Source of the DNA: Diacronema lutheri
Taxonomy: Eukaryota; Haptophyta; Pavlovophyceae; Pavlovales; Pavlovaceae
Direction of reading: 5' to 3'
DNA: 64,000 bases
NCBI GenBank assembly: GCA_019448385.1
Contig: JAGTXO010000019.1
Location: 248,001 to 312,000, forward strand
Every line of letters starts with the position of its first letter. The first letter of the stretch is position 1. Both the position numbers and the translations under genes were made by a program. Under the pieces are notes generated by a model. That model searched no databases, was not told the DNA's origin, and was given only the letters and a program-made list of their open reading frames with translations. Shown here one piece after another: positions 3,255 to 30,281 of this stretch.

Positions 3255-3662
3255 GCCCCTGCACTTCCCACGCTGCCGGGGGCGTGGCCCGGGATGAGAG
3301 GGGCGAGGTCGGAGGACGAGCCTGGGCAGGAGCAGGGGCAGGCGCCGCGCAGGCTGTCCTACCTGTAGAGCTTTTGCACGACTCAGTGTGCACGGAGAGA
3401 GCTTCCACGCCAATCGCCAACTGACAACGCACGAACTCACGGAAAACTGAGGAGTCCGGCCTTTTTCCATCCTGTGTAAATGTCCGGGTCGTCCGCGCAC
3501 CTGCCCCGGGCTCACTCTTGGCGAAGGGCGCTCGTCCCGGGAGGGCGGCGGTCGTCGAGTCGACCGGTTGGAGCGTGCCACTGTCCCGCTTGCCGGTAGC
3601 ACGTCTGCCCGCTGATACTCACGAGGCACGCGACTGCGCGCGCGAGCGCCGAGCGCGCGGAC

Positions 3663-6404
3663 ATGGTCACGCGACTGGACGCCGACGTGCTCGCGCGCAT
3701 CGGCGTGCTGGTTGGGCCGGAGGACGCGCTGTGCGTGCGCGCGTCGTGCCGCGCCTTTGCGCACGCGCTTCCCTCACCGACGCGCACGCCGCGCTCGACG
3801 ATGCTGCGCTCGCGCACGCTTGCCGCGTGGGTGTGGGCGCTGCCCGGCTTCCGCTCGGTCGCGTTCCCCGCGCGGGAGCAGACCAAGCTGTGCGCGCTGG
3901 CGGCGAGGGCTGGCTGCGTCGGCACGATGGCGTTGCTGCGCGAGCGTGGCTGCAAATGGGACAGCTGCACGTGCTCCGCTGCAGCTGAGGGTGGCCACCT
4001 CGAGGTGCTGCAGTGGGCACGCGAGCACGGCTGCGAGTGGGACAGCGACACGTGCTCCGCTGCAGCTGGGGTCGGCCACCTCGAGATGCTGCAGTGGGCA
4101 CGCGAGCACGGCTGCAAGTGGGACAGAGGCACGTGCCTCGCTGCAGCTCGGGGTGGCCACCTCGAGGTGCTGCAGTGGGCACGCGAGCACGGCTGCGAGT
4201 GGGACAGAGGCACGTGCCTTGCTGCAGCTGAGGGTGGCCACCTCGAGGTGCTGCAGTGGGCACACGAGCACGGCTGCGAGTGGGACCACCGCACGTGCTC
4301 CGCTGCAGCTCGGGTTGGCCATCTCGAGGTGCTGCAGTGGGCACGCGAGCACGGCTGCGAGTGGGACAGAGGCACGTGCCTTGCTGCAGCTGAGGGTGGC
4401 CACCTCGAGGTGCTGCAGTGGGCACACGAGCACGGCTGCGAGTGGGACCACCGCACGTGCTCCGCTGCAGCTCGGGTTGGCCATCTCGAGGTGCTGCAGT
4501 GGGCACGCGAGCACGGATGTGAGTGGAACAGCCGCACGTGCTCCGCTGCAGCTGAGGGTGGCCACCTCGAGGTGCTGCAGTGGGCACGCGAGCACGGCTG
4601 CGAGTGGAACAGCCGCACATGCTCCGCTGCAGCTCGGGGTGGCCACCTCGAGGTGCTGCAGTGGGCACACGAGCACGGCTGCGAGTGGTACAGCGACACG
4701 TGCTCCTTTGCAGCTGAGTGTGGCCACCTCGAGGTGCTGCAGTGGGCACGCGAGCGTGGCTGCGAGTGGGACAGCCGCACGTGCCTTGCTGCAGCTTGGG
4801 GTGGCCACCTCGAGGTGCTGCAGTGGGCACACGAGCACGGCTGCGAGTGGGACAGCAGCACGTGCTCCGCTGCAGCTGAGCGTGGCCACCTCGAGGTGCT
4901 GCAGTGGGCACACGAGCACGGCTGCGATTGGGACTACCGCACGTGCTCCGCTGCAGCTCGGGGTGGCCACCTCGAGGTGCTGCAGTGGGAACACGAGCAC
5001 GGCTGCGAGTGGGACAGCGACACGTGCTCCGCTGCAGCTCGGGGTGGCCACCTCGAGGTGCTGCAGTGGGCGCGCAAGCACGGCTGCGAGTGGGACAGCG
5101 ACACGTGCTCCGCTGCAGCTGGGGTCGGCCACCTCGAGATGCTGCAGTGGGCACGCGAGCACGGCTGCAAGTGGGACAGAGGCACGTGCCTCGCTGCAGC
5201 TCGGGGTGGCCACCTCGAGGTGCTGCAGTGGGCACGCGAGCACGGCTGCGAGTGGGACAGAGGCACGTGCCTTGCTGCAGCTGAGGGTGGCCACCTCGAG
5301 GTGCTGCAGTGGGCACACGAGCACGGCTGCGAGTGGGACCACCGCACGTGCTCCGCTGCAGCTCGGGTTGGCCATCTCGAGGTGCTGCAGTGGGCACGCG
5401 AGCACGGCTGCGAGTGGGACAGAGGCACGTGCCTTGCTGCAGCTGAGGGTGGCCACCTCGAGGTGCTGCAGTGGGCACACGAGCACGGCTGCGAGTGGGA
5501 CCACCGCACGTGCTCCGCTGCAGCTCGGGTTGGCCATCTCGAGGTGCTGCAGTGGGCACGCGAGCACGGATGCGAGTGGAACAGCCGCACGTGCTCCGCT
5601 GCAGCTGAGGGTGGCCACCTCGAGGTGCTGCAGTGGGCACGCGAGCACGGCTGCGAGTGGAACAGCCGCACATGCTCCGCTGCAGCTCGGGGTGGCCACC
5701 TCGAGGTGCTGCAGTGGGCACACGAGCACGGCTGCGAGTGGTACAGCGACACGTGCTCCTTTGCAGCTGAGTGTGGCCACCTCGAGGTGCTGCAGTGGGC
5801 ACGCGAGCGTGGCTGCGAGTGGGACAGCCGCACGTGCCTTGCTGCAGCTTGGGGTGGCCACCTCGAGGTGCTGCAGTGGGCACACGAGCACGGCTGCGAG
5901 TGGGACAGCAGCACGTGCTCCGCTGCAGCTGAGCGTGGCCACCTCGAGGTGCTGCAGTGGGCACACGAGCACGGCTGCGATTGGGACTACCGCACGTGCT
6001 CCGCTGCAGCTCGGGGTGGCCACCTCGAGGTGCTGCAGTGGGAACACGAGCACGGCTGCGAGTGGGACAGCGACACGTGCTCCGCTGCAGCTCGGGGTGG
6101 CCACCTCGAGGTGCTGCAGTGGGCGCGCAAGCACGGCTGCGAGTGGGACAGCGACACGTGCTTCGCTGCAGCTTGGGGTGGCCACCTCGAGGTGCTGCAG
6201 TGGGCACACGAGCACGGCTGCGAGTGGGACAGCAGCACGTGCTCCGCTGCAGCTGAGCGTGGCCACATCGAGGTGCTGAAGTGGGCACGCAAGCACGGCT
6301 GCAAGTGGAGACCGAAGCTCTGCTTGCGCGACGCGCGTTTGTCAGGCAACTCGCACGTGGCCGATTGGGTGCGAGAGCAGCTGGCGCTGCAGCGGCAGCC
6401 GTAA
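3663..6404 (+). CDS. Ankyrin-like repeat protein with 27-residue units
   Basis: Single uninterrupted frame of 913 codons. Residues 1-~95 form a non-repeat N-terminus (MVTRLDADVLARIGVLVGPE, then CVRASCRAFAHAL) that resembles the F-box-like leaders of algal and giant-virus ankyrin proteins. The rest is about 29 tandem units of 27 residues with the core GHLEVLQWAREHGCEWD followed by a TCSAAA helix. This short ankyrin-like unit, rich in W, C and H, is common in large families of stramenopiles, haptophytes and their viruses, where it serves protein binding; no partner can be inferred. The final unit is diverged (HIEVLKWARKHGCKWRPKLC) and the C-terminus is non-repetitive, so the protein looks complete. 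A 13-unit block is duplicated in tandem with almost no divergence. If the F-box-like leader is real it could be a ubiquitin-ligase adaptor, which is inference. Confidence 0.9.
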   Translation: MVTRLDADVLARIGVLVGPEDALCVRASCRAFAHALPSPTRTPRSTMLRSRTLAAWVWALPGFRSVAFPAREQTKLCALAARAGCVGTMALLRERGCKWDSCTCSAAAEGGHLEVLQWAREHGCEWDSDTCSAAAGVGHLEMLQWAREHGCKWDRGTCLAAARGGHLEVLQWAREHGCEWDRGTCLAAAEGGHLEVLQWAHEHGCEWDHRTCSAAARVGHLEVLQWAREHGCEWDRGTCLAAAEGGHLEVLQWAHEHGCEWDHRTCSAAARVGHLEVLQWAREHGCEWNSRTCSAAAEGGHLEVLQWAREHGCEWNSRTCSAAARGGHLEVLQWAHEHGCEWYSDTCSFAAECGHLEVLQWARERGCEWDSRTCLAAAWGGHLEVLQWAHEHGCEWDSSTCSAAAERGHLEVLQWAHEHGCDWDYRTCSAAARGGHLEVLQWEHEHGCEWDSDTCSAAARGGHLEVLQWARKHGCEWDSDTCSAAAGVGHLEMLQWAREHGCKWDRGTCLAAARGGHLEVLQWAREHGCEWDRGTCLAAAEGGHLEVLQWAHEHGCEWDHRTCSAAARVGHLEVLQWAREHGCEWDRGTCLAAAEGGHLEVLQWAHEHGCEWDHRTCSAAARVGHLEVLQWAREHGCEWNSRTCSAAAEGGHLEVLQWAREHGCEWNSRTCSAAARGGHLEVLQWAHEHGCEWYSDTCSFAAECGHLEVLQWARERGCEWDSRTCLAAAWGGHLEVLQWAHEHGCEWDSSTCSAAAERGHLEVLQWAHEHGCDWDYRTCSAAARGGHLEVLQWEHEHGCEWDSDTCSAAARGGHLEVLQWARKHGCEWDSDTCFAAAWGGHLEVLQWAHEHGCEWDSSTCSAAAERGHIEVLKWARKHGCKWRPKLCLRDARLSGNSHVADWVREQLALQRQP
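4031..6136 (+). repeat. Recent tandem duplication of 1,053 bp (13 ankyrin-like units)
   Basis: The block near 4031-5083 recurs near 5084-6136. The offset, measured at the unique GGGGTCGGCCACCTCGAGATG segment (4067 and 5120), is 1,053 bp, exactly 13 units of 81 bp. The only clear difference noticed is a synonymous T/C in the Cys codon of a GCEWN unit (near 4515 and 5568). Confidence 0.9.
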
Positions 6405-6416
6405 TCTAACGCCAGA

Positions 6417-6482
6417 GCATCAGGGGGGGGGGGGGGGGGGGGGGGGGGGAAGGGGGAGTTTCCCCACCTCCCCTCCTGATGC
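6417..6482. repeat. Inverted repeat enclosing a G27 run
   Basis: GCATCAGG at 6417-6424 pairs with CCTGATGC at 6475-6482. The G run at 6423-6449 faces C-rich sequence CCCCACCTCCCCTCC, which would extend the stem. It starts 13 bp after the ankyrin stop codon, so it may act as a 3' end structure or mark an insertion boundary. Confidence 0.6.
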
Positions 6483-6574
6483 GACACTCGACTGTGGCCT
6501 GATGCGAGTCGCTCCGACGCCGTCGCTCTATATACGGCGCGGTTCGGGGTGGTCCGGCCAGTAGGGGGCTGAGA

Positions 6575-6656
6575 GTACGACCCGGGTCGTACAATCAAGT
6601 GTTAAAAGCCAGCCAATGAGCGCTCGAGGCGTCGGAGCGAGGCTTAGGACGAGCCT
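6575..6656. other. 18-bp perfect palindrome, CCAAT motif and small hairpin
   Basis: GTACGACCCGGGTCGTAC at 6575-6592 is a perfect palindrome. A CCAAT motif lies at 6612-6616. A hairpin follows at 6640-6656 with AGGCT/AGCCT arms and a TAGGACG loop. A TATATA sits upstream at 6527. The arms CGACCC/GGGTCG and the loop TAGGACG both recur in one hairpin at 17029-17049. The region 6405-6973 has no recognised gene; these signals may be a promoter for the plus-strand nuclease locus, which is inference. Confidence 0.5.
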
Positions 6657-6973
6657 AGGACCGAGACTCCCCTCCTGACCGGCGGATTTTGAGTAGAATT
6701 CGGGGTCGAGCGGGCGCGGCGGACGGAGGGCCCGAGCCGGGCCGACGGAGGGTCCGACCCCGGAAAGCGGGCGACCGGAAGGGCTCAAGTGATTGACGCC
6801 CAGTACAATTGAATGGCGGATTCCGGGGGGGATCGCAACTGGCATCGCGCAAGCTGAGGCGCTCTGACTGACCGGACCGCGCCGAGTGCGCGTGCACCCC
6901 GTGGAGGGCGCGGCCAGTCGGACAGTCTTCGCGACTGAGCTCGCCGCGGCATACCGTGCGCTGCGCCGGCGCG

Positions 6974-7390
6974 CTACTTGCCGTTGGCCGAGCTGCGGGT
7001 GTTGCGCACGGCCGTGTTGCGCAGCCAGCGCCTCGATGCGCCGGTGGCCGGAACCTTGGCGCGCTTTGACTAAGCGACCTCGGCCTGCACAGACTCGAAC
7101 GCGCGCGTGAACTCGTGGCGTTACAGGTGGCGAGCACGTGAGTTCGCGTAGTAGGTCTTGTACTCGGTGGTCTGGCTGTCGACCGACGAAAGCTTGGGCG
7201 AGTTCGGCGGCACGTTGGCTCACTTGGGCTCGCTGCGCGGCTCTGCCGGCGCCGGCGCGGGCTCGGGCGCGGGCGCGACGCTTCGGACTCGCTGCCCAGC
7301 TTTGCCTTCGTGGGCGCGGTCGCGGGCACGGGCGCGCCCTCGACCCTGTCGCGGTTGAAGGCATCGATCTCGACGCACACGCCGTGGTCC
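6974..7390 (-). pseudogene. Decayed coding relic on the minus strand
   Basis: Reading the minus strand from about 7390 down gives protein-like segments interrupted by stops and one frame change: DYKDHGVCVEIDAFNRDRVE, then after a shift PNSPKLSSVDSQTTEYKTYY and ANSRARHL-stop, RHEFTRAFESVQAEVA-stop, and a last piece WLRNTAVRNTRSSANGK ending at a TAG at 6974. The composition and order suggest the C-terminal part of a former gene truncated where the plus-strand nuclease frame begins. It could instead be several short exons, but no convincing GT/AG pairs join the pieces. The family is not recognised. Confidence 0.4.
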
Positions 7391-7399
7391 TTGTAGTCG

Positions 7400-10300
7400 G
7401 TGGCCCCGCCCGACCGCGCGACGGGCGAGCCGGCGGTGCACGCGGCGACGTCCGAGCTCGCCGTCGAGCTGCTGCGCGACGCGCGCGCGCTGGCCGGCAC
7501 GGACGGGCGGCTCGTCGTGCTGTGCCTCGAGGCGTCCAACCCGCTCTGGTTCTGCCCCAAGGTGCGCGAGCTCGAGCTGCCGCGGACGCGGTCGGACGGC
7601 GTGCGCGCGTCCGGCTGCACCTGCCCTGCGACGTGCAGCGATGCGCGCGGCGCGGCGGGTGGCGCTGCCCGCGGCGCATCGACGCGGCCGGCGGCGCGCG
7701 CGATCAACAAGGCGGTGCTCGACCACTTCGTCGCGCTTTTCGGCCGCGAGGGCTTCGCGACCTTCGAGTTTGCGGGCGGCGGCGAGGCGAGCTGGCTGTG
7801 CGACAGCGCGGCCGGCACGACGACCGTCGCGGCGTGCGCGTCGCTGCCGCCGCGCATGGGCGATGGGCAGCTGGCCATCCGGCGGCACACGCTCGGCACG
7901 GGCGCCGACGCGCCGGCGCACGCCGTCGTCTCGCTCCGCGTCGCGCACGTGAGCCACGCCATCCGCCGCGCGGCGGACGACGGCGGCGCGCGCGCCGAGC
8001 GGATGGCGCGCGCCGCGCGCGCGTTCTGCGATGTGGCGGCCGCGCTGCGCGTCGACGCGATCCTGGCGGAGGTGCCCAAGGACCGCCCGACGGGCACGCC
8101 ATCCCTTGGCGGGCTGCTCGAGTTTTGGGACAAACGCCACGGGAGCTCGACGGCGCCAGCCACGCTCGCGCTCGGAGACGTGCGCGAGGTGGCCAAGCGG
8201 ACGGCCGACGCAGCGGCCGGCCGAGCGGACGAGGTCCCTGCGGCTGGCCGTCCACAGGTCGCGGCGCGCGCGTGCGCTGGCGCGATTGGCGGCGGCGCGG
8301 GCGCGGCGGGCGCCTCGGACGCTGCGCCCCGTGCACTGGCGGGCGCGTCGGGTGCGCGCACGGACGGCGGCCCTGCCGACGCACGCCAGCTGGAGAGCCG
8401 CTACGGCAAGGCGAGCAAGCACGGCTTAATCCAACATTCCACTACGGGCTGCGTCCTCGACGCTCGCGAGGCCCCGGACCGCGCGTGCGTGCCTGCGCCC
8501 GACGGCACAGCGCTGCGCCGCGTGCTCGACGCCGTCGGCGCGGGCGCGCCCGCGCAGCGCAGCCCGCGCTGGCACGACGAGCGATGGGAGGAGGTCACGG
8601 GCGGCAAGGTTGGCGACGTCGTGAACGACAACGCCGGCGTCGCGCACGAGACGCTCACCGACGAGTACGTGCACCGGCGGCGGCGCGAGGTGCGGACCAA
8701 GGCGACGAGGGCGGGCATCCTCGGCGAGGCCGTCGCGCTGCGCAAGCTGGCGGCCGCGTACGGCATCACCGTCGTGTGCAACCTGCCGATGGTGCGTGCG
8801 GACCCGCACGACATGAGCGCGCCGTTCGCCTTCTCGCCGGACGGGCTCGCCATCCTCCCCGGCGACAACGAGCAGGTCCTCGTCGAGGTGAAGACGCTCA
8901 CCAAGGCGGACGCCAAGGCGCACGAGGACGGGCCGCCGCAGCCGCGCCGCGATCAGCTGCAGCTCGGCATGCACGTCCTCGGCGTAAAACAAAGCGCTCC
9001 ACGTGCAGTACCTCAGGCACGAGGACCGGATCGTCGTGCACGTCGTGACGCGCGGCGCCGGCTGGCTTGCATTCGCGCAGCCGAGGGTGCAGGCCTTCTG
9101 GGCGCGCGTCGTCGAGCGGCGCGCGCGGCTCGAGCGCGCGCGCGCCGACCACCCGGCTGCGAGTCGGCGGCACCGGCGGCAGCAGACGCCGGCCGGGCCG
9201 CCGCTCGTGCTCGCGCTGGACGGGCGCATCCCCGCCGCGCGCGCCGCCGCGCTGCACGCCGTCGCGCACGGCACCGCGAGCGCGGCGGCGGTGGCGGCGA
9301 CGGCGGCGACGGGCGACGCGACGGCGTTGCAAGGCGCGATCGCGGCGATGCGCGCGCCCGTCGGCAATGCGGCGATCACCAGCGCAGCGCGTGCGGAGCG
9401 CGCGGCCGTCGAGCGCGCGATCGCGTACCTCGGGCAGCTGGCAGGCGACGCCGCCGCCCGCGGCACGGCCGAGGCGGCCGAGGAGGAGAGGACGGTCGAC
9501 GCCGACATCTGCGCGTTGCTGCACCAGCTCGGCGCGAGCGTGGCGCACGTGCACGTCGAGGACGCGGATTGCGTCACGCGTGAGCACTGCGGCGAGGCGG
9601 TGCTCGCTGCAGTGGGCGACCCGTTGAGCGCCCCCGCCACCTCGAGCGTCATCGTCGCGCACATCGTGCGGCTCGCCGGCTTTGGCGTCGAGCTCCCGCA
9701 GTCGATTCGCGTCGCCCCCAGCACGGCCAAATGGCACGAGGGCTGGCTCGACGTGCAGTGCGTGCTGCTGCGCACGCGCCGGCGCGGGCGGCGCGACGAC
9801 GACTTTGTGGCCGTCGTCAGGCGCGGTGGGCGCTGGTTTGCGTGCGAGCCCGGCCGCGCGCGGCGGCTGCAGTGGCGGTCGGTCCTGCGCCGCGCGCGCG
9901 GCGGCGTCGACGGGACCGGCGAGGAGGCGTTCGCGGTCGTCTACGTGCGGCGCGGCGACGCGGCCGGCGACGCGGCTGGCGACGCGCAGGCCGAAATGGC
10001 GCGCGGCGGGCGCGCGCGCAAGCGCACGCGCGGCGGCACGCGCAAGCGCAAGCGCGGCGCCTGCGCCGGGCTCGAGGCGGCCGCGCCCGCCGGCGCGCCG
10101 GCTGCCGCGCCCGCCGGCGCGCCGGCGGGCGCTGCTCACCGCCCGCTCGCCAGGCGTGCCACGGTCGCCGCGCGCACCACGCGCTCTGTGACCGACGCGC
10201 AGCACTCGGCGCCTGCCGCCACGGTTGCACCTGTCTTCGACTGGCGCGCCGGCCGCCCGCCCCCCGCCGCTCGAGCCCGCCATCCGCGGCCGCGTGGGCG

Positions 10301-10480
10301 CGCGCCACCGGGCAAGGCCTGGGACAGCGCCTCGGGTGCGTGGGCGGACAAGCCGACTGGTGCTGCCGTCGCCGCCGCGCCGCCGCCGCTGCCGCCTGCC
10401 GCCGCGCCGCCGCCCGCCGCCGCGCCGCCGCCCGCCGCCGCGCCGCCGCCCGCCGCCGCGCCGCCGCCCGCCGCCACCGG
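7400..10480 (+). CDS. YqaJ-type PD-(D/E)XK nuclease protein, probably fused to the downstream chromodomain-Fanzor part
   Basis: The frame opens after a TAG at 7394 with no ATG until 7857, so the true start is probably in an unseen 5' exon. Around 8720-9110 the sequence carries the YqaJ nuclease core: GILGEAVALRKLAAAYGITV, then FSPDGLAIL (Asp codon 8840-8842), VLVEVKT (Glu 8885-8887, Lys 8891-8893) and QLQLGMHVLG, followed by a strand and an F-W segment. YqaJ/lambda-exonuclease enzymes are DNA exonucleases or recombinases of viruses and mobile elements. The frame shifts by one base in an A-rich stretch (8988-8996, CAAAG): removing one A restores VKQALHVQYLRHEDRI, and a 25-nt GT-AG gap would also do so. 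The second half has an FVAVVRRGGRWFACEPG segment of unknown role, a strongly basic tract near 10000-10060 that could be a nuclear localisation signal, and a Pro/Ala linker. It then enters (AAAPPP)n, where phase changes into the next part. Confidence 0.7.
10399..10480 (+). repeat. 18-bp tandem repeat encoding AAAPPP
   Basis: About four to five copies of an 18-bp unit (GCCGCCGCGCCGCCGCCC). Good coding continues in one frame before it and in another after it, so the reading phase changes within or just after this array. Confidence 0.75.
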
Positions 10481-13400
10481 CGGCGCTCGGCCGCCGGCAG
10501 CACGTCGGCGCGGGCGGCAGCGCGGCGGGCCGGCGGCTCGCGGCCATCGCACGTCGGCAGCGCGGCGTGCGCGCGCCGCCGCCCGCCGCGCGCTTCCTCG
10601 CCACGCTGCCGCCACCGCCACGCGACGGCCTCGCGCGCACGAGCAAGCAGGCGCGCGCGAGGCGCAACGCGGACGGCCGGCCGGCGCACGCGCGCGCGGC
10701 CAACGCGCGCGCCTTCTACCGCGGCGTGGAGCTCGGCGTGCACGCGACGCGCGCCATCGTCGACGCGCGCCACGCCGACCTCCCGCAGGCCGTGTTCGTG
10801 GCGGAGGCGCGGGCGATCGTCGCGCGCTCCGCCGGCGGCGGCGCGCTGCTCGCGCCGGACGACGTGCGCGACCTGTGCGACGCGCAGACGGACGCCGATC
10901 GCGCTGCGATCTGGGCGTCGGTGGGCGCGCACGAGGCGACGCGCATCTTCGCGCTCGTCACGCGCAACGCGAGCTTGGCGGGCGCGGCGCTGCTCGTGCT
11001 GCACACGCCGGCGGACGCGCCGGCGCGCGCGCTCGGGCTCGTGGCGACGCGCTCGCGCGCGCCGTCGACGGGCGCGCCGTGCGACGCCCACAGGGCGCTG
11101 GTGAAGCGGTTGGACGTGCTGACGGGCGCGATCGCTGCGGCGCGAGGCGCGCTGCCGCTCGAGCTCGAGCTCGCGCTCGCGCCCGAGCCGCAGAGCGCGT
11201 GCAACGCGCGTGCGGCCGCGCTGCTCTGCCTGCAGGCCGTCGCGGACGCGAGCGACCGTCCCGCCGCTGAGGACGCGCTGGCCGCGCTCGACGACGCGCG
11301 CGGCATCGACCGGCACTGCCACGCCGTCCGGCAGCAGATCGAGGCGAAGCTCGCGTGGCGGCGCGCCGACGGCGCCGTGGGCGTTGACGGCGCCGACGGC
11401 GCGCCCGCGCTCGCGCCTGCGGCCGCACCGCCGGCGTGTGCGCCGGCGCACGCTGCCGGCGAGGCGGCAGTCGACCAGGCGATCGTCACGCGGGTGCGCG
11501 ACGCGCTGCGCGCGTGGGCGACGACTGGCACCGCGCCCAGCGCGGCGGTGCTCGACGACGCCTGCGCCGCGTACACGGCGCGCGCACGCGCGCGCAAGGA
11601 CGCGCGCACGGCGCTGGGCCCGACGCGCGCGGCCGAGCTGCTCGCCGCGGCCGCGCGCGGCGGAGCCGATGGGGCGGATGCCGCGCGCGCGCTGCTCGGC
11701 GGCACGCCGCGCCTGCTCGTCGTGCTCCTCTGCGTGCCCGTCGCCGCGCCGTCCGGCGAGCCGCCGCGCCCGGTCGGGCTGCTCGTCGCCGACCGGCCGA
11801 CGGACGACTCGCGCCCGGCCGCGCTCGTGCGCTACGACTTTGCGCCGCTCGACGCGGACGTGGCCGTCGCGGTCGGCGCGCATGCCGTCGCGCTGGCCAA
11901 TGCGATCTGGCCGCTGCTCGCGGCCGAGGGGGAGCCGCGGCCATCGCCCGTCGTGCGCTCGCAGCCGCGCGGCGGCGACGATGGCGCGCGTGCGCTCGCA
12001 ACGTTCGCATGCCTCGACGCGCTGATGACCGCCAGCGTCGGCGCGCATGGCCTCGCGGGCGGCGCGGGCATGCTGCCCGCGCTGGTCGCGCGAGGCGCCA
12101 CGGCCGCTCAGCGCGAGCGGCAGCTGCGCGCGGCCGCCGAGAGGCTGGGCGGCACGGTCGCTGGGTGGCCGGACACGGGCGCGAGCGCGGCGGGCGCGAG
12201 CGTCGACGAGGAGGCGCGCACGTACGAGGTCGAGGCGGTCGTCGACGAGCGCCGCAAGGCGGGCAAGAGGGTGACGTTCGAGTTCCGGATCAGGTGGCTG
12301 GGCTACGACGAGAGCGCCGACACGTGGGAGCCTGAGGCCAACGTGAGCAGCGACCTCGTCGCCCAGTTCCGCAAGACGCGCGACGAGCAGAAGCGGCGCG
12401 CGGGCGGATCGGGCAGCGGCAGCGGCAGTGCGGGCGCGGCGTCCGCATTGGCGTCGGCGCCGCTTCGCGCGCACGGCGTCTCGGGCGCCGCGGGCAAGCG
12501 CGCCGCGGCGGGTGCCGCCGCGAGCGCGCGCGACGCCGCGGGCGCGCGCGCGCCGAGCGTTCCCCGCGCGCGCGGCGTCGAGAGCGCGCGCGTGGACGAG
12601 CCCGATGCGCCGAGCGCGCGCGCCGCCGGCAGCGCGACGGCGCGCACGCGCGGCAGCGTGCTCACGGGCTTCGTGGTCAAGCGCTCGACGCTCAACGCGG
12701 GGCCGCAGGCGGTGACGGCGCAGCCCGGTGCGCGGAAGGAGCTGCGGCGCATCGCGGCGGCCGTGCACAGGCTCACGACACAGGCGTACCGCGTCATCAA
12801 CAAGGTGGTGCGCGACGAGGCTGCGGTGGCGAGCGCGCAGGCCGTCGGCGCGGCGTCGGGCGGCCCATCGACCAGCGTGCACACGTCGACCACGATGGAC
12901 AAGGGAACCGTCCTTGCGATCTTCTCGGCCATCGGTTGGCACAAGGACGAGAGCACGTACGGTGCAGCGCCCCGAGGCAAGCCCGCCGAGCAAGCCGCCG
13001 CGCAGACCAAGGCGGCGACGGCGCGCGCCGTCGGCGAGATGGCCGAGGGCATCCAGCCCGTCTGCGCGGTGGGCCTCGCGAGCATCCTCAAGGAGGAGGC
13101 GACGCAGGTGTCCATCGCGTGCCTGATGCACCCATCGCGCGTCGTGAACGGGCTGCTCCGCGACGTCGTCCGCGCGGCAGTCGAGCGCGACGAGGCGCTC
13201 GTCGCGCTGCCCGAGATGCAGCGAAACGCGCGCGTGCGCGAGCTGTGCGAGCGGCTGCTGCGCGGCGACGTGGAGGGCGCGCGCGTCGGCTGCCCCGCCG
13301 CGCTCGACCGCCACCTGCCCGACATGGTCCTCCACAAGATCGACTACGAGTGCGCGCCCACGGATAGGTGGAACTACGACCGGCACACGACGCACTACTT

Positions 13401-15019
13401 CCTCGTGCAGATCCGCAACCTGCAGCACGTGGCCAAGGGGCAGGCGCTGCTCTGCCGGCTCGCGCACATCCACACGCAGCTGACCGGCCGGCCGCCGCGG
13501 TACAATGTGGCGCCGCTGCGCACGCACAATGTGCGCGCGAGGCGCGGCTGCCGCTGCCGCCGCCGAGCGCCCAAGCGCGCGCGCCGCCGCCGTGCGCGCC
13601 GCCCCGCGGCCAGGTTGGTCACGCGCCCGCGCGCTCGCGCGCCGCGCGCTGCGCGCAGGTGCCGCGCAACGTGCGCCTCACCGCGAACGCCATCTGGGAG
13701 ACGCTCCCGGACGACGAGCGCAAGGAGCTGCGCGCGCGGCTCAAGGCGCTGGACCTGCGCGACCACGATGGCGAGCCGATTCGATGGACCAAGCGAGGCG
13801 GCTCGTTTGTCCCGCCAATGTCGGACGTGCGCGTCAGGTACGCGGTCTTTGCGACGCGCTTCGACATCTCCAACCGCGTCTTCGACTACGCCGGGCGCGA
13901 GCGGCCGCCGGCCGACCTGCCGTGGCACGCGCGGCGCTCGTGGGTTGGCCTCGCGCCGCTGCCGCGCGTGCCGCTCCCGGGCCGGCAGCCCGTCAAGTCG
14001 GTGGTGACGGATGGCGTCGCCGTGCACGCCGTCGGGACCGTCCTCGTGCCGAAGGCGCAGGCGCCGGCCGGCGGCTCGAGCGTCCTGCACCGCTGGCGCC
14101 GGCCGGACGGGCGCATCGCCGTCGCGCTCGGCTCTGAGCTGCAGCGGGCGATTGATGAGGAGGAGGCGGTCGTCGTCGCGGCCGACCCGAACATGGGCAA
14201 CATCACCACCTACTCTGCGCACGTCGGGCGGGCGGCCGTCTGGCGGCAGTTCACGCAGCGCGCGCGCGCGCGCGCCGCGGGCTTGCGCGCGAGACGGCCA
14301 AGACCAACGCGGCGCGGCGGCGCGTGCGCAAGAACGGGCGCAGCGAGGAGTTCAGCGTGGAGGCGGACGAGGCGCGGCTTGGCGAGGCGCACAGCGCCAA
14401 GGTGCTCGGCGAGGGCGAGTTCCTCGCCTTCCACCGCGAGAGCGCGCGGGTGCGCGAGCGCGCCGCCGAGCACGTGTACGACGCGCCGGCGCGCCGCAAG
14501 GAGCGCTGGCGGCGTGACAGCGGCGGGCGGTCCAACGCGGCGCGCGTCGCCGAGGCGCTCATCGCGGCGCACTGCGTCGACGGCGTGACGCGCGACCGGC
14601 TGCTCGTGTGCGTGGGCAAGTGGCTGCACGACCACAAGGGCGCGCAGCCCAAGGGCGCGCCGCCCGCCTTCCAGGTGGGGCTGCTGCGCGAGCTGCGGCG
14701 GCGCGGCGTCGCGGCCGTCTTCGTGCCCGAGCCGTACACGTCGATGCACTGCTCGATGCCGCGGCTCGCCAAGGGCGGCAGGCTGCAGCGCTGCGGCGCG
14801 GAGCTCGCGCAGGACCCGCGCCTGCCCGTGGCAAAGGGCGGCACGCGCACGGTGCACGCGCTCGTCATCTGCCCGGCGTGCAACGGCGGCAAGAAGCCCG
14901 TGCACCGCGACTACAACGCCGCGCGCAACATCTTCTACGACGTGCACGACATTGCGGCGCACGCGGCCGGGCGCGACACCACGTCGACGCCTGAGCGCTT
15001 TGCCCTCGTGCTCGCCTAG
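10481..15019 (+). CDS. Chromodomain-Fanzor (TnpB-like, RuvC RNA-guided nuclease) protein
   Basis: Frame continuing from the YqaJ part; no ATG marks a separate start. An alpha-rich region of unknown function (10500-12200) leads to a chromodomain at about 12223-12372 (YEVEAVV, then FEFRIRWLGYDESADTWEPE). Next come a helical Fanzor-like N-terminal region (LRRIAAAVHRLTTQAYRVIN) and an intron at 13531-13658 with a GTGCGC donor. RuvC-I is VVVAADPNMGN (Asp 14184-14186). Then the Fanzor block runs LLVCVGKW, KGAQPKG and VFVPEPYTS (Glu 14729-14731), a Zn ribbon (HC, RCG, ICPAC), and RuvC-III HRDYNAARNIF (Asp 14909-14911). E-x-x-T-S as the RuvC-II-like Glu is a Fanzor trait; TnpB/Fanzor enzymes cut DNA guided by an omega RNA from the element. 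A (CG)n tract at about 14256-14280 shifts the frame by two bases. Apart from that shift, which may be error, all catalytic residues are present. Confidence 0.75.
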
Positions 15020-15385
15020 TGGGCGCGCGGCGAGGTGTGGGAGCGTGAGGAGCGCATGGTGCACGGCGAGGGCGACGACTGCGACGACGAGGGCGACGGC
15101 GACGACGAGGGCGACGACGAGGGCGACGGCGACGACGACGACGACGGCAGCGGCGACGGCGGCGGCGGCGAGGGCGACGGTGACGGCGACGGCGACGGAG
15201 GCGGCGGCGGCGACGACGACGATGACGGCGGGGGAGGCGGCGGCGGCGACGGCGGTGGCGACGACGGCGGCGGGCGCGGCGGCGGTGGCGGCGGCGGCTC
15301 TCGCGCCCGCACCCCCGCCCGCGGAGCTGCCAGCGCCAGTGCCGGCGGCGGCAGCGCGCGCGGGCCGAAGCGCGGCCGGCGTTGA
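15020..15385 (+). other. In-frame acidic Asp/Gly tail behind a single TAG, ending in a basic motif
   Basis: In the same frame as the Fanzor C-terminus, the codons after the TAG at 15017-15019 read WARGEVWEREERMVHGEGDD, continue as a long Asp/Gly/Glu tract, then SRARTPARG, and stop after GPKRGRR at 15385. Its persistence in frame for 122 codons suggests it was the original disordered C-terminus with a nuclear-localisation-like end, cut off by a nonsense codon. It may instead be a GC-repeat artefact, because acidic Asp/Gly runs arise easily from (GACGGC)n. Confidence 0.45.
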
Positions 15386-15809
15386 CGCACGGCCGAGCCG
15401 CGCAGCGGTCGACGCTTTGCGGGCTCCGCCCAGGTCGCGCGCGGCTGGCGACGCGTAACGCATTCGGCACGCCCGTGCATGCCGCCGCCCGTGGCCGAGC
15501 GCGCCGCACCAGCCGGCCCGCTCCAACCGCCGAGCGGATCACGGACGCTTGCTACGGCTCGTCGGCGCGCGTCACCTGCGCCGGCGGCCACGGCGCCGTC
15601 TGCTCCGCCCTCGTCGCGAGCAGACCGACCGCTGCTCGCCGCCCGCACGCCGCCGCAGCAACGCTGCGCGTCGTGCTCCCCCGCTCGCCAAGCGAAGAGC
15701 TCCCTCACAAGGACGTCCTTCCGAACGGCCCGCGCTGCACTCGGGGCGCTCAACCGTGCCCCTGATCGGATTTGGCTTGACCATCTATACCTTCGATCCC
15801 AGCCCCACC
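15386..15809. other. Stretch without a recognised gene
   Basis: Right flank of the nuclease locus. No convincing coding frame, no terminal inverted repeat matching 6405-7400, and no tRNA-like fold was seen. Confidence 0.4.
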
Positions 15810-16924
15810 TCACGCCCTCCTCCGCCCAAGTGAGCGCCCCGCTGTGAGCTTCTGGTCGAGCGGCATCACGATGGCGGTCGTGCGCGTCTGCGTCTTGCGC
15901 GAGTCGATCGTCTCACACTCACACTCGGACTCCTGACATCCATAGTGGAGGGGGGGAGGGGGGATGGGTGAGTGGGAAATTGGGTGAGTGACGGGTGAAT
16001 GCGCAGGTGCAAGACGCGCGGGTGGAGCGCGGGCGGGTGAGGCACGGTTGGGTGGCGGGCGGGTGGAGGACGCGCGGGCGGGTGAGGCACGGTTGGGTGG
16101 CGGGCGGGTGGAGGACGCGCGGGCGGGTGAGGCACGGTTGGGTGGCGGGCGGGTGGAAGACGCGCGGGCGGGTGAGGCACGGTTGGGTGGCGGGCGGGTG
16201 GAGGACGCGCGGGCGGGTGATGCACGGTTGGGTGGCGGGCGGGTGGAAGACGCGCGGGCGGGTGAGGCACGGTTGGGTGGCGGGCGGGTGGAGGACGCGC
16301 GGGCGGGTGACGGGCGGGTGGGGCGGTAGCCGAGACGAGGCGCATGCTCTGCCACCCGAGGCGCTGGCAGCCTGCACGCAGGCCTGCACGCGGCCGACCG
16401 CGTGCACGCCTCGCCCCAGGCAGGCCCTCGCGAGCCGCCGCCGCCGCCGCCATGCCCATACGCACGCACACGCGCGCCTCACCTTGACCGCGTGTGGGAT
16501 TCGGACCTCGTGCACCTCGGCGAGCATGCGCAAGGAGCCGTGCGCGACGCGCGCGCCCACGGATGAGCGGACTGTCTTCCACGCGCCCAGCTCCGAGCGG
16601 CTGGCGGGGCGAAGGGGGGGGGGGGGGGGGGGGGGGGGGAGGAGGAGGAGCGGAAAGGGAGGAGCGGAAAGGGGGCCGGATTTGGGGTTTTAAAGTCTGA
16701 GCGGATGGGTCATGGTGGGTCAGCGTGCGACGCGCGACGTGGGGGCGCGCGCACCGCGCAAAGTCGGCCCACTTCGCCTCGGCGGCCGTCCCCGCCTCCG
16801 AGTCCGTATCACCGCCACCGACGCCGCCGCCTCCGCCCCAACCTCCGCCTCCGCCTGCGCCTGCGCCTGCGCGCGCGCCGCCGTGCCGCGCGGAGCTCAG
16901 CGACTTGATGTCGTTGTCCGCCAT
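15810..16924 (-). CDS. Hypothetical protein, three exons
   Basis: Exons 16755-16924, 16483-16600 and 15810-15932 join in phase (56 codons+2, 1+39 codons, 41 codons) to a 136-residue protein. It begins MADNDIKSLSS, passes through a Gly-rich linker, then KWADFARRSELGAWKTVRSS, HGSLRMLAEVHEVRIPHAVK and ESECECETIDSRKTQTRTTA, ending LDQKLTAGRSLGRRRA. Donors are GTGCGC and GTGAGG. The second intron (16601-16754) carries a C-run on the coding strand; the first listed toward the 3' end (15933-16482) carries a 45-bp minisatellite. An in-frame ATG at about 16982 could extend the N-terminus. Upstream on the same strand are a CCAAT motif (near 17080) and a hairpin at 17029-17049. No family was recognised. 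The last codons contain the 21-bp sequence also found at 2796. Confidence 0.6.
16041..16320. repeat. 45-bp minisatellite, about six copies
   Basis: Units starting GGCACGGTTGGGTGGCGGGC at 16041, 16086, 16131, 16176, 16221 (variant) and 16266. It lies inside the larger intron of the minus-strand hypothetical gene. 45 bp is a multiple of three, so both strands show spurious long open frames here. Confidence 0.9.
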
Positions 16925-20500: not shown

Positions 20501-23209
20501 CGCCATGCTGCCCCTTGACGAGCGCCCACGCGTCGGCGCGCCGGCGCGCCTCGTCCGCGCGCGCCGTCGTCTCCGCCTCCGCCGCGCGCAGCGCGCCGCG
20601 CGCGACACGGCGTCAAAGATCCCGGCCGCACCGCCGCGGTCGCTCGGCTTGGCAGCGGGCGCAAAGTCGCCAGCCCCGCCGCGCGCGCCGCCGTCGGCCG
20701 CGTCCGCCGCAGCGTCCACCACCGCGCCCGCCGCCGCCGCCTCCGCCTCCGCCTCCGCCGCCTCCGCCGCCGCCATCGCCGCGTCGACAGCGGCGACGCC
20801 GGCGAACGGCGCGCAGAGGCCGACGAGCGCCGGCCCGTGCTCCGAGGCGAAGGCGACGCACGCGTCGGCGGCGATGGCGGCGACGACGGCGCTCTTGTGC
20901 AAGTACGCGCCGCCGCCGCTCGCGCCGCCCAAGAGGCCGCCGCCACCACCATCGGGCGCATCGCCCGCCGCTGCCGCCGACGTGCGCGCCGCGTCCGCGC
21001 CCGCATTGATCTGCGCGCGCACCGCGCCGAGCGCGCCATCAGCATCGGATGCGACGGCCTCGCTCTCGCGCACCCTGGCGGCAAGATGCGCGCGTGCCCA
21101 CTCGCCCGCAATCAGCATGGCTGCCAGCTCCTCTTCCGCTGTGAAATATTCCAGTTCGCCCGCGCCCGCCGCCGCCGCCGCCCGCTCGGCCGCCGCCTGC
21201 TCGGCGGCGGGCACGGCGGACGGCACGTCGCCGGCCGCGCCGGTGGGCGCGGCGGCGCAGGCGGGCGCGACCGGCGTCGGCGACGAGGGCGGTGGCGGCG
21301 TGCGCGGCGGAGGCGGCGTGGGCGGCCGCTGCGGCGTGTGCGGCGCGTCGCCACCGCCACCCGCGCCGTCCGCCGTGGCGTCCGCCGCCAAGGGCGACGG
21401 GCCGGGCGGCGATGGCGGCGGCTCGGTCATCGCGGCGCTGGGCGGAGGCGGCGCGCCGGCGCTCGGCGCGCCCGGCGCGGCCGAGCCGGCCGCGCCGTCG
21501 CCGTCCACGCCGCCGCTAAGGCCGCCGCCGCCGTCGCCGTCGCCGCCTCCACCACCGCCGTCGCCGCCTCCGCCGCCACCGCCGTCCACTCGCCGCGCGT
21601 TCGACGCGAGGCCGCTCGCGACGCTCGTGCCGCCGCCGCCCGACAAAACTGCGCTCGCCGGGCCGCCGCCCGACGAAACTGCTGTCGCCGGGCCGCCGTT
21701 CGCGCTCGCCGGGCCGTCGCCCACGTCGATTTCGTCAGCGGCGAGCAGAGCCTCGGGCACGCCTGCGGCCACCGCCGGTGCACGCGCGCGTGCATCGCGG
21801 CCCGCGCGGCGACGCGCGACGGGCGGCGGCGGCGGCGCGCGTGAGCGCGCGGCGGTGCAACGGTAGCGCGCGGCGGTGTGGCGGCAGCGCGCGGCCGCGC
21901 TGGACGGCGGCGCGCGCGCCACGGCGGCGCGCGCAGAGGCGGCGGCGCGCGCGCCACGCGCACCAGCCAGGGCAAGGTCGCGCTGCACGGCGCCGAGCGC
22001 GTTCAGCGCGCCCGCCGCGCGCGCGAGCTCCTCCTTGGCGCGAGCGTACCTGCCGCGAGGGCGGCGGCGCGGGCGAAGGCGGCGGTGCACGCGAGGGCGG
22101 CGGCGCGGGCGGCGACCTATGAACCCTGCGTGCGCCAAGCCGCCGCGCTCGCCGCCGCGCTCGCCGCGCGCAGCCCCCCTCCGACCGCGCGCGCGCGCGC
22201 GCACGCACTTGGCTTTGTCGACGCAGTTGGCCGCGAGGGCGGCGCGCGAGACCTGCAGCTGGCGATCGGCGTCGGCTGTGAGGAGCGCGCGTAACGCGGC
22301 GGCGGACGCCTGGCGCGCCTCGGCGGCGGCGGGCGCGGCGTCGGCGAGGTGCGTCAGGCCGATGGACGCGTCGGCGCGCGCGCCGAGCGCGAGCAGCAGC
22401 GCGTGGCCCTGCCCGCGCGCCGCGTCCCACCGAGCGGTCGCGTCAACCGTTGCGGCCGCCTCCGCCTCGTGCCGCGTGAGCTGGCGGCGCGCGGCGGTGG
22501 CCTTCCGCGTCCAGCGCTGGCGCTCGGTGGCGGCGAGCGCGGGCGTGAGCGCCGCAGCCGGCCGCAGCCGCACCGACGCGAGCAGCGCGCCGCGCGCGCG
22601 CTCGAGCGCGTCGAGCGCGCTCGCAGCCTCGGCCTCGCGCGACTCGGCCGAACGCACGAGCGCGCTCGCGTCGTCGAGCGCGGCGGCGAGGTCGGCGCGC
22701 TGCTCGGCGGTGGCGCCGGTGAGGCCGGCGTAGCCGTTCGCGTAGCCCGCGTACGTGACCGCCGCGCCGCGCACCGCGCCGAGCATCACGCCCGTGCCGC
22801 GCGGCGCCGCCTCGCCCGCGTCGGCGTCGGCCGCCGCGTCGAGCGCGGCGAGCGCCGCGGACAGCTGACGGTGGGACGAGGCGAAGGCCTGGCCCTGCGC
22901 CTCGGCGAGGATCGCAATGTCCGCGCCCGCCTCGGCCGACAGCTCCTCCGCCTCCGCCTGCGCGTTGTTGTACGCGTCGATCGCGCGCTGGTGCAGCTCC
23001 TCGGTCACCTTGCCGAGCGCGCGCAGCTCGGCCGAGCCGAGCAGGTCGAGCGCGCCCTCGGCCTGGGCGAGGTCGGCGCGCGCGTCGCGGACGGCCTCAA
23101 GTGCCGCCTGACCCGCCGCAATCGCCGACGCCTCGTCGCGCAGCGTCGATGCGAGCGCGCGCAGCCGACGCGACGCCGCCGTCAAATCGACCGGCGGCGG
23201 AGCGACCAT
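17507..23209 (-). CDS. Large Ala-rich helical protein of unknown function, six exons
   Basis: Exons 22209-23209, 21964-22049, 20485-21762, 19875-20205, 18472-19110 and 17507-18226 join in phase, apart from one 2-bp discrepancy, to about 1,350 residues. The start is MVAPPPVDLTAASRRLRALA. The protein is helical and Ala/Glu/Arg-rich: ELHQRAIDAYNNAQAEAEEL in exon 1, a Gly/Pro-rich disordered stretch, AYLHKSAVVAAIAADACVAF in exon 3, SLDLMDRLAHAATTGAAPAG in exon 4, EAVEHHRDGAFLGGLGVDAA in exon 5 and RQPVLFISEFLHAAATGRSR in exon 6. Near 20596-20612 a CG-rich tract shifts frame by two bases; deleting one CG restores LRAAEAETTARADEARRRAD. Donors are mostly GTGCG. The last ~60 codons are basic low complexity, so the true stop may lie upstream. 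No known domain was recognised; a scaffold or coiled-coil role is only a guess. It shares a 116-bp divergent upstream region with eL31. Confidence 0.65.
18231..18348. repeat. 57-bp direct repeat with GGTAAGGTGGGTGAGG tracts
   Basis: GGCACGCGGAGATTTTGGGG occurs at 18231 and 18288, each followed by a run of GTGGGTAAG/GTGGGTGAG units. It lies in the last intron of the Ala-rich gene, near the acceptor on the coding (minus) strand. Confidence 0.8.
19130..19830. repeat. GC minisatellites (GCACAGCGGGCGGACGGGCG family, then CCGCCCGCC family)
   Basis: From 19130 to about 19560 the plus strand is a mosaic of GGCACAGCGGGCGGACGGGC units. From about 19670 to 19830 it switches to C-rich CCGCCCGCCGGCC units, giving an inverted arrangement of G-rich then C-rich arrays. 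All lies within one intron (19111-19874) of the Ala-rich gene. Confidence 0.85.
20349..20458. repeat. 8-bp minisatellite (GCGGGAGG)n, about 14 copies
   Basis: Nearly perfect array of GCGGGAGG with one T variant, in the intron 20206-20484 of the Ala-rich gene. Strong G-quadruplex potential on the plus strand. Confidence 0.9.
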
Positions 23210-23325
23210 CGTTTTGTCCGTCCTGCGCCCGAGAGTGATAACGGCCACGGGGCGCCATGCTGGCATTTCGTTCCCGGACAGCGCTCCGGGTGCGTGAGCC
23301 ACGTTGCCTTGGGACGAGAGCGGCG
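23210..23325. promoter_or_regulatory. Divergent upstream region of the Ala-rich gene and eL31
   Basis: Only 116 bp separate the two start codons, so this must hold both promoters and 5' leaders. No TATA box is seen. Confidence 0.5.
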
Positions 23326-24678
23326 ATGGCGAAGGGCAAGGGCGAGAAGATCCAACGGACCCAGGACGTGGTCGCGCGCGAGTACACGATCCATTTGCAC
23401 AAGGCGCTGCACGGCGTCGGCTTCAAGAAGCGCGCGCCGCGCGCCGTGAAGATCGTCAAGGCCTTCGCGACCAAGATGATGGGCACCAAGGTGCGCGCGC
23501 CGCGCCGCGCGCCGCCGGCCGTGGCCGCACGGCACGCTCCGTACGCGGTGCGTTCGCGGGCTGGCCGAAGGGCGCGCGCAGCGAGTGGGTGGCGCGGGTG
23601 CCAGGTGCACGGCCGGGTGAGCGGGCGGAGCAGCCGCGCGGTCGGCGCACGCGAGTGCGCTGCGCGCTCGGTCGGCGGCTGCGCGCGCACGCCGGCGGCG
23701 CCCCTCGCCGAGGCCGCGACGCGGCACGCCTGCCGGAGCGCGGCACGCGCTGCAGCGCGAGCGTGCGCCGCTGTCGACAGCCACCGCGCCGTCGCGGCCG
23801 GCCGCCTCCGACCACCTCCACAACGCGCGGCTGCGATCGCCGCATCGCCCGCTCTGCGTCGAGTCTGCGCGTCGAGGCTGCGGTGGCTTTCGACAGGCGC
23901 ACGCGCGGGTGCGCGTGCGGCGGCCGCATGTCAACGACGGCTGCGCGTGCGCGTGTCTTTGAGCGCAGTGCTCTGCTCAACTCTGTGGCTTGCTCCGCTG
24001 CGCGGCGAGCGCCTCGCCGCCCGTGCGCGAGCCGCGGCGCGCGAGCCACCGGCCGCCCTTTTCCCGAATTGCGCTGCACGATGCCTGCGGCCACCCGCCG
24101 GCCAGGCTTGCCTCTCCCGCCGCTCTGAGCGACACATACCCGCCTCCGCCGGCATCAGAGAGGCCAGTGGGGGGTTGGAGAGAGGGATGCCCGCCGGCGG
24201 CGTGCCCGCCGGCACGCCGCCGGCATCATCGACCGGCACGCGCGCAATTCGCGCTGCGCCCGTACGTACGGCGCCGCGGCGACGAGCTGGTCGGGCAGCA
24301 GCAGCTGCGGCTACGTATCGAACGACGGCGTGCCGACGTTTGCGCACGTCCGCACGCGAGCTCGCTGCGGCCCGGGAGGTGGCTGGGCGACGGTTACGGC
24401 CACAGATGCGCCCGGAGGCGCGAACGCCGACCGCAGCGCACGCGCGCGCTCCCCGCGCCGCCGCTCGTCACCGCGGCGCGCAGGACGTGCGCGTGGACAC
24501 CAAGCTGAACAAGGCGCTATGGGCGCACGGCGTGAAGGCGGTCGACAGGCGCGTGCGCGTGCGCCTCAGCCGGAAGCGTAACGACGACGAGGACGCCAAG
24601 GAGAAGCTGTACACGCTCGTCACGCACGTGCCCGTCGAGTCGTTCAAGGGCCTCGGCGTCACCGCCGTCGACGAGTGA
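23326..24678 (+). CDS. RPL31: 60S ribosomal protein eL31
   Basis: Two exons, 23326-23490 and 24484-24678, join in phase to 119 residues, the normal eL31 length. The protein starts [20 protein letters not shown] and continues [20 protein letters not shown], then [20 protein letters not shown]. Exon 2 gives [20 protein letters not shown] and [20 protein letters not shown], ending [16 protein letters not shown]. These are the conserved eL31 features (VxREYTIxxHK, FKKRAPRA, GTxDVRVDTxLNK, RxSRKRNxDE). It is a large-subunit protein near the peptide exit tunnel. The 993-nt intron begins GTGCGCGC and ends GCGCAG; it is long for this window and holds a perfect 14-bp hairpin. Identification is very secure. 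Confidence 0.97.
24193..24224. other. Perfect 14-bp stem hairpin in the eL31 intron
   Basis: GCCGGCGGCGTGCC at 24193-24206 pairs perfectly with GGCACGCCGCCGGC at 24211-24224 around a four-base loop. It lies in the middle of the eL31 intron. Confidence 0.75.
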
Positions 24679-24947
24679 GCGTGACGGCGCTCTGTGCGGC
24701 TGTGCGGGCGGGCGCGACGAGGCCATGTTGAGCCGTTGAGCACCCTCGCAGTCGTGCAATGGCGAGCGCGCGTCGGGCGCTGGCGCCGTGGGCCAGCGGT
24801 CGCGCGCGGGCGATCAGGACATATAAGCTGGCGTCTTGCGCGGGGCACCTCTAGTCAGAAAGGCGCAGACACAGTCAGGCGACACGTGCTGCCCTGCCTG
24901 CAGCGCCGGTGCGGTGAGGCTGGCGAGGCGCCTCCGCCGCGTCGGTT

Positions 24948-30144: not shown

Positions 30145-30281
30145 GCTCCTATATACAAGGCTTTTGAACAGCTGCGAGGCACCGTGGTCCCCGTCGGCGC
30201 GGCGCGCGCCGGCGCGGCCGTGCCGGCCGGCAGCTTCGAAACGCCGGCTGCCTTGACGACGCCTGCCTTTGCCATCCAGGC

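Follow-up and report, generated by a model that had tools for sequence, protein, structure and literature searches.

In the chromodomain long terminal repeat (LTR) retrotransposons, a mobile-element protein, the integrase, carries a histone-reading module. The accessible part of PMC6338049 names both LTR-element chromodomains and Fanzor, each separately, and the biological function of the RNA-guided Fanzor nucleases is described as little known in the accessible text of PMC10711439. The closest described elements are CRe-1/2/3 of Chlamydomonas, Helitron2 elements carrying Fanzor1 (Bao and Jurka, 2013; accessible part of PMC3627910), and the closest described enzymes are the Fanzor1 proteins SpuFz1 (PDB 8gkh) and Parasitella Fanzor1 (9cf0). 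A literature search made without most subscription papers found no report of a chromodomain paired with a Fanzor; words in chromo- are absent from the accessible text of PMC10711439 and PMC11423790 and occur once, within a reference title, in that of PMC3627910, and the accessible main text of the D. lutheri genome paper (PMC8379373) contains no word in transpos-. Here, we describe a locus of the haptophyte alga Diacronema lutheri in a window of 64,000 nucleotides (the whole stretch analysed: assembly GCA_019448385.1, contig JAGTXO010000019.1, positions 248,001 to 312,000; G000:C47:248001-312000 in our searches). It contains a deleted copy of an element of about 31 kb, which appears to be a high-copy mobile element of this alga and whose last gene would code for a chromodomain joined to a Fanzor1-type nuclease, interrupted by one short predicted intron. 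Judged from sequence, this is the best overall explanation of the locus, with a probability of about 0.6. As in the chromodomain LTR retrotransposons, a mobile-element protein is combined with a histone-reading module; in contrast to them, the module lies beside an RNA-guided nuclease and not on an integrase. The parts of the gene in the window copy are the following:

12223..12375, forward strand: chromodomain with the aromatic cage Y, W, Y kept (Pfam PF00385; alignment with HP1 and CDYL)
12376..12666, forward strand: low-complexity A/R/G linker of about 97 residues, open in the chromodomain frame
12667..13530, forward strand: exon 1 with the N-terminal, WED/REC-side half of the Fanzor (limits drawn by eye; Fanzor profile match)
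13531..13658, forward strand: predicted GT-AG intron, 128 bp, phase 0 (identical GTGCGC...GCAG borders in the window copy and the copy on contig C3)
13659..15019, forward strand: Fanzor C-terminal half with RuvC and zinc ribbon, frame-broken in the window copy
14184..14186, forward strand: RuvC-I aspartate, ADPNMGN (sequence; alignment)
14729..14731, forward strand: alternative RuvC glutamate, VPEPYTS, in the E-x-x-T-S context (sequence; alignment)
14909..14911, forward strand: RuvC-III aspartate, RDYNAARN (sequence; alignment)

By its motifs, the nuclease is a Fanzor1-type RuvC/zinc-ribbon enzyme with an aspartate, an alternative glutamate and a second aspartate. The OrfB/TNB zinc ribbon PF07282 was found in 14159-15016 (E value 5.5e-7, 30.1 bits with a cut-off of 26.3). 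When a near-identical protein from an ENA source (P0001) was aligned with three divergent Fanzors of the D. lutheri genome, the D-P, the E-x-x-T, the cysteines and the R-D were invariant. The canonical RuvC-II glutamate is gone by eye (the position reads VGKW) and the alternative glutamate is present, which is, together with a DPG motif, the arrangement given for Fanzors in the accessible text of PMC10711439. RuvC-I reads DPN instead of DPG, and SpuFz1 likewise reads DPN in the profile alignment. The spacing of the Fanzor motif D-X(125,275)-[TS][TS]-X-X-C4 finger-X(5,50)-RD (accessible part of PMC3627910) is satisfied in P0001 by D171, T356-S357, C360 ... C400, C403 and R412-D413. A profile of these four sequences matched SpuFz1 at 2e-14 and Parasitella Fanzor1 (PpFz) at 6e-8, and gains its strength from the other Fanzor families of the genome. 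Over RuvC, a second Fanzor family of the genome aligns collinearly with the C-terminal half of the C3 Fanzor at 26% identity (E value 1e-8, computed for this one pair only), and NCBIfam gave weak TnpB matches only (E values 0.011 and 0.023). SpuFz1 and Parasitella Fanzor1 share with the algal nuclease the RuvC D-E-D with the alternative glutamate, the zinc ribbon, a TDG motif ahead of RuvC-I and the home in a transposable element; unlike them, the algal nuclease is joined to an N-terminal chromodomain, is very divergent and resides in a 31-kb element.

In the frame that opens at 10192, the chromodomain takes up residues 678-728, and PF00385 matched there with an E value of 1.4e-11 (44.5 bits with a cut-off of 25.1). 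The best rows in the PDB were CDYL (3.2e-9) and Drosophila HP1 (4.3e-9). In a chromodomain, the aromatics Y, W and Y form the histone-reading cage, and all three align with those of HP1. In its predicted sequence, the window chromodomain is thus canonical, of the HP1/CDYL/Clr4 kind, and may well bind a methylated histone H3 tail. It resembles the chromodomains of HP1, CDYL, MPP8 and Clr4 in sequence and cage, and differs from them in belonging to a transposon-coded nuclease. A preliminary description of the window, made from the letters alone, had already named a chromodomain and a Fanzor/TnpB nuclease with an alternative glutamate; the Pfam match, the CDYL/HP1 alignment and the cage aromatics bear out the first call, the invariant residues and the profile match to SpuFz1 the second.

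The genome (43,492,796 bases, 103 contigs) contains many further copies, for which the same description had suggested a search. We found at least 136 matches to the RuvC part of the window family (the best 136 of 604 candidates scored), at least 150 to the chromodomain (the best 150 of 260), of which the four top ones (on C30, C5 and C69) look like other genes by score and frame length, and at least 150 to the zinc ribbon (the best 150 of 306, other Fanzor families included). These counts are lower bounds, and some places may be one insertion held twice. In at least 89 of the 136 places with a RuvC match, the chromodomain list has a same-strand entry 1939-2038 bases upstream, and in 60 of them the distance is exactly 2030 bases. 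The remaining 47 places have no chromodomain partner among the matches listed; since the window copy is one of them, the chromodomain list misses real ones, and some of the 47, e.g. L026 and L027, are truly without the chromodomain region. Domain order and strand are therefore constant, and spacing nearly so, in many copies, and the copies read share the frame; the chromodomain-bearing frame measures 4480-4620 amino acids in 68 of the 150 chromodomain matches listed. Two short copies, on C28 (12.7 kb) and C27 (21.6 kb), retain both the chromodomain and RuvC.

The window copy spans three reading frames, opening at 10192 (chromodomain and Fanzor N half), 13368 (first aspartate) and 14159 (glutamate and last aspartate). 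The frame change between the Fanzor halves is most simply the predicted 128-bp intron. The second frame change is not present in the C3 copy, where RuvC is open through a 1015-amino-acid frame and the D-E-D is intact, as it is in P0001; 1015-amino-acid frames are listed for many other copies as well. Between the chromodomain and the Fanzor N half of the window copy there is neither a stop nor a frame change. When the six frames of 12400-13658 were compared with a profile of the other Fanzors of the genome, only the chromodomain frame scored (E value 0.0012, collinear, positions 126-214), while the other five stood at 6, the ceiling of the search. It is thus likely, with good confidence, that chromodomain and Fanzor would be made as one fused protein. 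The fusion had been proposed at the outset; it gains from the chromodomain sharing its frame with the only detectable N-terminal Fanzor homology, but the two Fanzor halves lie in different frames and are joined by a predicted intron. The high-copy arrangement itself, a chromodomain next to a Fanzor within a 31-kb element, is real as it reads in the assembly, and a description of it in the literature was not found.

Several results weigh against this explanation. Used alone, the window-family Fanzor matched only Cas12f, at an E value of 0.35, and did not recover SpuFz1, which makes it a far outlier; the hidden Markov model search suggested by the preliminary description hence rose above noise with the four-Fanzor profile but not with the single sequence. 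The predicted Fanzor structure is poor (predicted local distance difference test, pLDDT, 38.8), too poor for superposition, and Foldseek gave no match for this model at an E value ≤ 0.001 (best 0.049; the rows for Cas12f and SpuFz had E values of 0.05-0.4 and low template modelling scores). In word-limited searches of 5.8 billion proteins, with the best 8000 candidates scored per search, the joined protein and P0001 region 240-470 matched P0001 as the sole relative and the second Fanzor family had no protein match; no relative appeared in the viral contigs searched. In a wider six-frame search, the N-terminal Fanzor match reached an E value of only 0.67 for the whole sequence and 2.3 for the domain. 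At 75% GC, long open frames arise easily, and an antisense frame of 1787 amino acids occurs in the same element. The single-sequence model of the chromodomain (pLDDT 73) is helical rather than showing the chromo fold.

A comparison of copies belongs to the same side. We took the C3 copy as reference and counted synonymous (pS) and non-synonymous (pN) differences, without a significance test, in six copies of other subfamilies (L009, L010, L022, L023, L025 and the window copy), alongside five nearly identical copies and the fragments L026, L027 and L062. For the C half, pS was 0.018-0.048 and pN 0.015-0.027, with pN below pS in all six copies and pN/pS, by division, of 0.4-0.85. For the Fanzor N half, pN (0.015-0.031) was about equal to pS (0.015-0.028), and the chromodomain showed no synonymous and 1-6 non-synonymous changes. 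With pN close to pS in the N half and all chromodomain changes non-synonymous, purifying selection is barely visible, if at all, and the comparisons lend at most weak support for constraint on the protein. Such slight or absent constraint between subfamilies fits a decayed passenger: the element would spread by its other genes and the nuclease would no longer work. The window copy is in line with this. Relative to C3, it has a one-base deletion in RuvC, after the first D and before the E, carries further indels upstream and stops early at 15019, so that it is, as read, a non-working gene, and the interest lies with the open copies elsewhere. The DPN of RuvC-I, where DPG is expected, could likewise be taken as decay, but SpuFz1 is an active Fanzor and has the same DPN. 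Moreover, P0001 and the C3 copy retain the D-E-D triad together with the zinc-ribbon cysteines, and in five copies (L015, L016, L018, L024, L028) every part matches C3 at 99.4% identity or more, which points to recent spread. For these reasons, we consider a decayed passenger unlikely.

Alternatively, chromodomain and Fanzor may be separate proteins, with the chromodomain ending an upstream protein or polyprotein and the Fanzor made from its own promoter or released by a protease of the element. The low-complexity linker could conceal such a boundary, the chromodomain lies within the last ninth of a 4510-amino-acid frame in the C3 copy, and a ubiquitin-hydrolase domain is coded elsewhere in the element. 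P0001 starts inside exon 2, but it comes from a 2435-base contig and probably reflects an alternative start. On the other side, six of the seven copies covering the linker (the window copy and six others) have no frame-changing indel relative to C3, the exception being L025 with 2 bases; in addition, the N-terminal Fanzor homology runs on in the chromodomain frame and the distance from chromodomain to RuvC is nearly constant. Two separate products thus appear rather improbable, and a single fused chromodomain-Fanzor stays the preferred explanation.

The chromodomain does not seem to be general to the Fanzors of this alga. The genome holds at least three other Fanzor lineages (L055/L057; L059-L061; L058), and in the L055 frame (1421 residues seen, start not included) Pfam gave the zinc ribbon only, at E values up to 1; the sequences L057-L061 are too short to judge the presence of a chromodomain. 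In L056, a member of the window family, an internal deletion has removed the chromodomain.

The gene is part of a larger unit, of which the window copy keeps the following features:

6528..15790, forward strand: element copy with both ends kept, internally deleted (9.26 kb compared with about 31.0 kb at full length; blastn, shared end sequences)
6528..6596, forward strand: 5' end carrying a predicted terminal hairpin and, at 6576, a second palindrome, perfect, TACGACCCGGGTCGTA (12 copies compared)
7405..7409, forward strand: internal deletion junction, two blocks overlapping by 5 bases (blastn against the map)
8549..8992, forward strand: RecE/YqaJ-like exonuclease remnant, upstream of the chromodomain in the same element (PHROG phrog_434)
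15743..15762, forward strand: subterminal 3' hairpin, 7-bp stem GGGGCGC/GTGCCCC, 28 nucleotides from the fixed 3' end
15768..15790, forward strand: fixed 3' terminus GGATTTGGCTTGACCATCTATAC (exact 23-mer in 14 of 20 loci)

On a coordinate map assembled from one C87 copy and one C3 copy, blastn placed window positions 6529-7409 at map positions 1-919, in two blocks, and 7405-15790 at 22599-31034 with 96.5% identity; the element starts at 6529 by blastn and at 6528 with a conserved C included. The helicase region of the element is absent from the window copy through the internal deletion. The exonuclease remnant matched phrog_434 over residues 385-532 of the frame that opens at 7397 (E value 2.8e-7), and Pfam YqaJ gave an E value of 0.22 only. 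The preliminary description had set the unit at 12200..15019; both domains lie inside that interval, but the element copy extends from 6528 to 15790, and its 31-kb parent had gone unnoticed.

Pairing the best 40 of 269 5' ends with the best 40 of 245 3' ends gave 24 pairs among the ends scored, of which 23 were kept; the pair at C27:48026 (37,844 bases) was dropped, its 3' end belonging to a nearer copy. Eleven of the paired elements measure 31,019-31,082 bases, five 21,563-21,593 and three 26,266-26,515, and the other four are 12.7, 29.4, 31.6 and 32.2 kb long. The parts of the C87 and C3 copies that were read encode a PIF1 helicase (divided between two frames in C87), a domain like ubiquitin hydrolases (UCH, E value 4.3e-8; L031:18-1511) and the 4510-amino-acid frame that ends in the chromodomain and the Fanzor N half and is followed by the RuvC frame, so that the chromodomain-Fanzor gene comes last in the element. 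The very long frame may code for a polyprotein. By eye, an H...D...C order in L031:18-1511, in the frame from C3:4871 and in L029:469-7998 recalls cysteine proteases, with a library match only in L031:18-1511 (UCH). The N-terminal ~330 residues of the PIF1 helicase (L033:4912-5900) recall viral single-stranded-DNA-binding proteins by eye, and no library match backs this likeness. Near the 5' end of the element, L033:3472-4358 forms a palindrome of about 870 bases that holds direct and inverted repeats of 86-104 bases. One copy (L014, C9:421500-431400) has a 4.2-kb internal inversion flanked by about 31 shared bases, L017 is a truncated copy with an intact 3' end, and other copies are internally deleted.

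The ends of the element look Helitron2-like, with a fixed 3' end and hairpin, no terminal inverted repeats seen and no constant duplication. At the 5' junction, a C precedes TATATA in 10 of 12 copies; the terminal hairpin was predicted in one fold of another copy's 5' end, without a control. The stem of the 3' hairpin is constant and its loop variable among the window copy, L011 and L022. Folding of the 3' end compared with shuffles gave z values of -0.5 to -1.5 (four copies, lengths tried), and Rfam had no match at an E value of 0.1 in window 6400-16500. Of the six loci without the exact terminal 23-mer, a contig start truncates three, the last bases of L025 are changed, and L026 and L027 diverge earlier. 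By eye, terminal inverted repeats were not seen, merely a short GC-rich complement. The insertion footprints vary: a 13-bp target duplication (GCGAGGACTATAT) occurs in one of nine scanned copies, one filled site is short of 7 bases (8 if the 5' C is the element's) compared with two empty repeat versions, and in most copies no change was seen; by eye, neither the window copy nor the C3 293-kb copy has a duplication. A clean empty site for the C8 74-kb copy was rejected, its right flank being the edge of another repeat. With CRe-1/2/3, the element shares the fixed 3' end, the 3' hairpin, internal deletions and 5'-truncated copies, and the duplication behaves alike, being missing in exact-ended CRe copies and otherwise often 7-19 bp (accessible part of PMC3627910). 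Unlike CRe-1/2/3, the algal element is about 31 kb long, has a PIF1 helicase but no Rep that could be found, carries a chromodomain and has one target that lost 7-8 bases.

It is because Rep was not found that we do not file the element as a Helitron2. Pfam on ten forward frames, and none of the reverse strand, gave neither Rep nor HUH, scanning the element for the HUH pattern returned a single antisense match, PF14214 (Rep) is not in the element, and tblastn with the Rep-bearing C63 locus revealed no Rep in it. The only Rep domain listed in the genome is a separate Helitron-like one at C63:35738-36019 (PF14214, E value 8.3e-23). A retrotransposon, as the fixed 3' end and the 5' truncation might suggest, was rejected: across the 12 copies compared, the 5' end is as constant as the 3' end, no poly(A) was seen before the junctions, and the forward frames scanned had no reverse transcriptase among their listed matches.

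A further idea, put forward at the outset, was that the chromodomain steers new insertions, as in chromoviruses. The cage residues are retained and two of 20 insertions have a 3' flank (100 bases) in repeats, matching many places (best 40 of 135 candidates). However, the other 18 flanks are single-copy, one of them with an additional 75%-identical partial match, and this is much like the control pieces from the window, of which 19 of 20 were single-copy (the multi-copy one lies in an ankyrin array; best 40 of 162 candidates). Insertions were therefore not seen to favour repeats, and the flank test, a further point on the opposing side, left chromatin-directed insertion unsupported. Furthermore, the footprints vary and, to our knowledge, Fanzors do not act as integrases. 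Steering of insertions thus looks quite improbable. A related possibility, in which the chromodomain takes the Fanzor to methylated nucleosomes and the Fanzor breaks made there become the entry sites of the element, was considered because the varied footprints look like staggered-cut repair rather than a constant transposase footprint; we regard it as very doubtful.

An assembly artefact or contamination is extremely unlikely to explain the arrangement: many copies touch contig ends and at least one insertion seems to be held twice (the C87 copy, L033:1179-1476, and the C28 copy, L036, have 299 bases of left flank in common at 98.7%, from one insertion held twice or a duplication), but the same window holds ordinary genes (ribosomal protein L31e, sulfate permease) and many copies sit inside large contigs with distinct flanks. 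Contigs C1, C6, C8, C12, C26, C29, C79, C83, C90 and C92 start less than about 1 kb from a RuvC or at a 3' end, and the 31-kb repeat probably breaks the assembly. In the neighbourhood of the window copy, a long ankyrin-repeat frame (3600-6401, 14 stretches, PF13637 E value 9.6e-74) ends about 125 bases before the element, with related repeats on many contigs, and a 45-base unit stands in tandem just beyond the 3' end (16027-16310, 6.3 copies, 97% matches).

What the fused chromodomain-Fanzor would do for its element can be sketched tentatively. TnpB cutting retains its transposon at the donor site, and the Fanzor may act in the same way: an omega RNA encoded at the element's 3' end would guide cutting of re-closed donor sites or allelic empty sites, upon which the element would be copied back or kept. 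The chromodomain would hold the nuclease on the silenced, nucleosome-packed chromatin where the element's own copies sit. This double role, cutting of donor or empty sites and tethering to silenced copies, is a possibility that we hold with clear reserve.

Cas12-like enzymes perform poorly on closed chromatin, and engineers fuse chromatin-binding modules to them. If the chromodomain and the Fanzor of D. lutheri are one protein, evolution would already have made a chromatin-reading RNA-guided nuclease, in a culturable alga, and multiplied it many tens of times. The fusion would then make it possible to test if histone reading benefits Fanzors and what Fanzors do for eukaryotic transposons.

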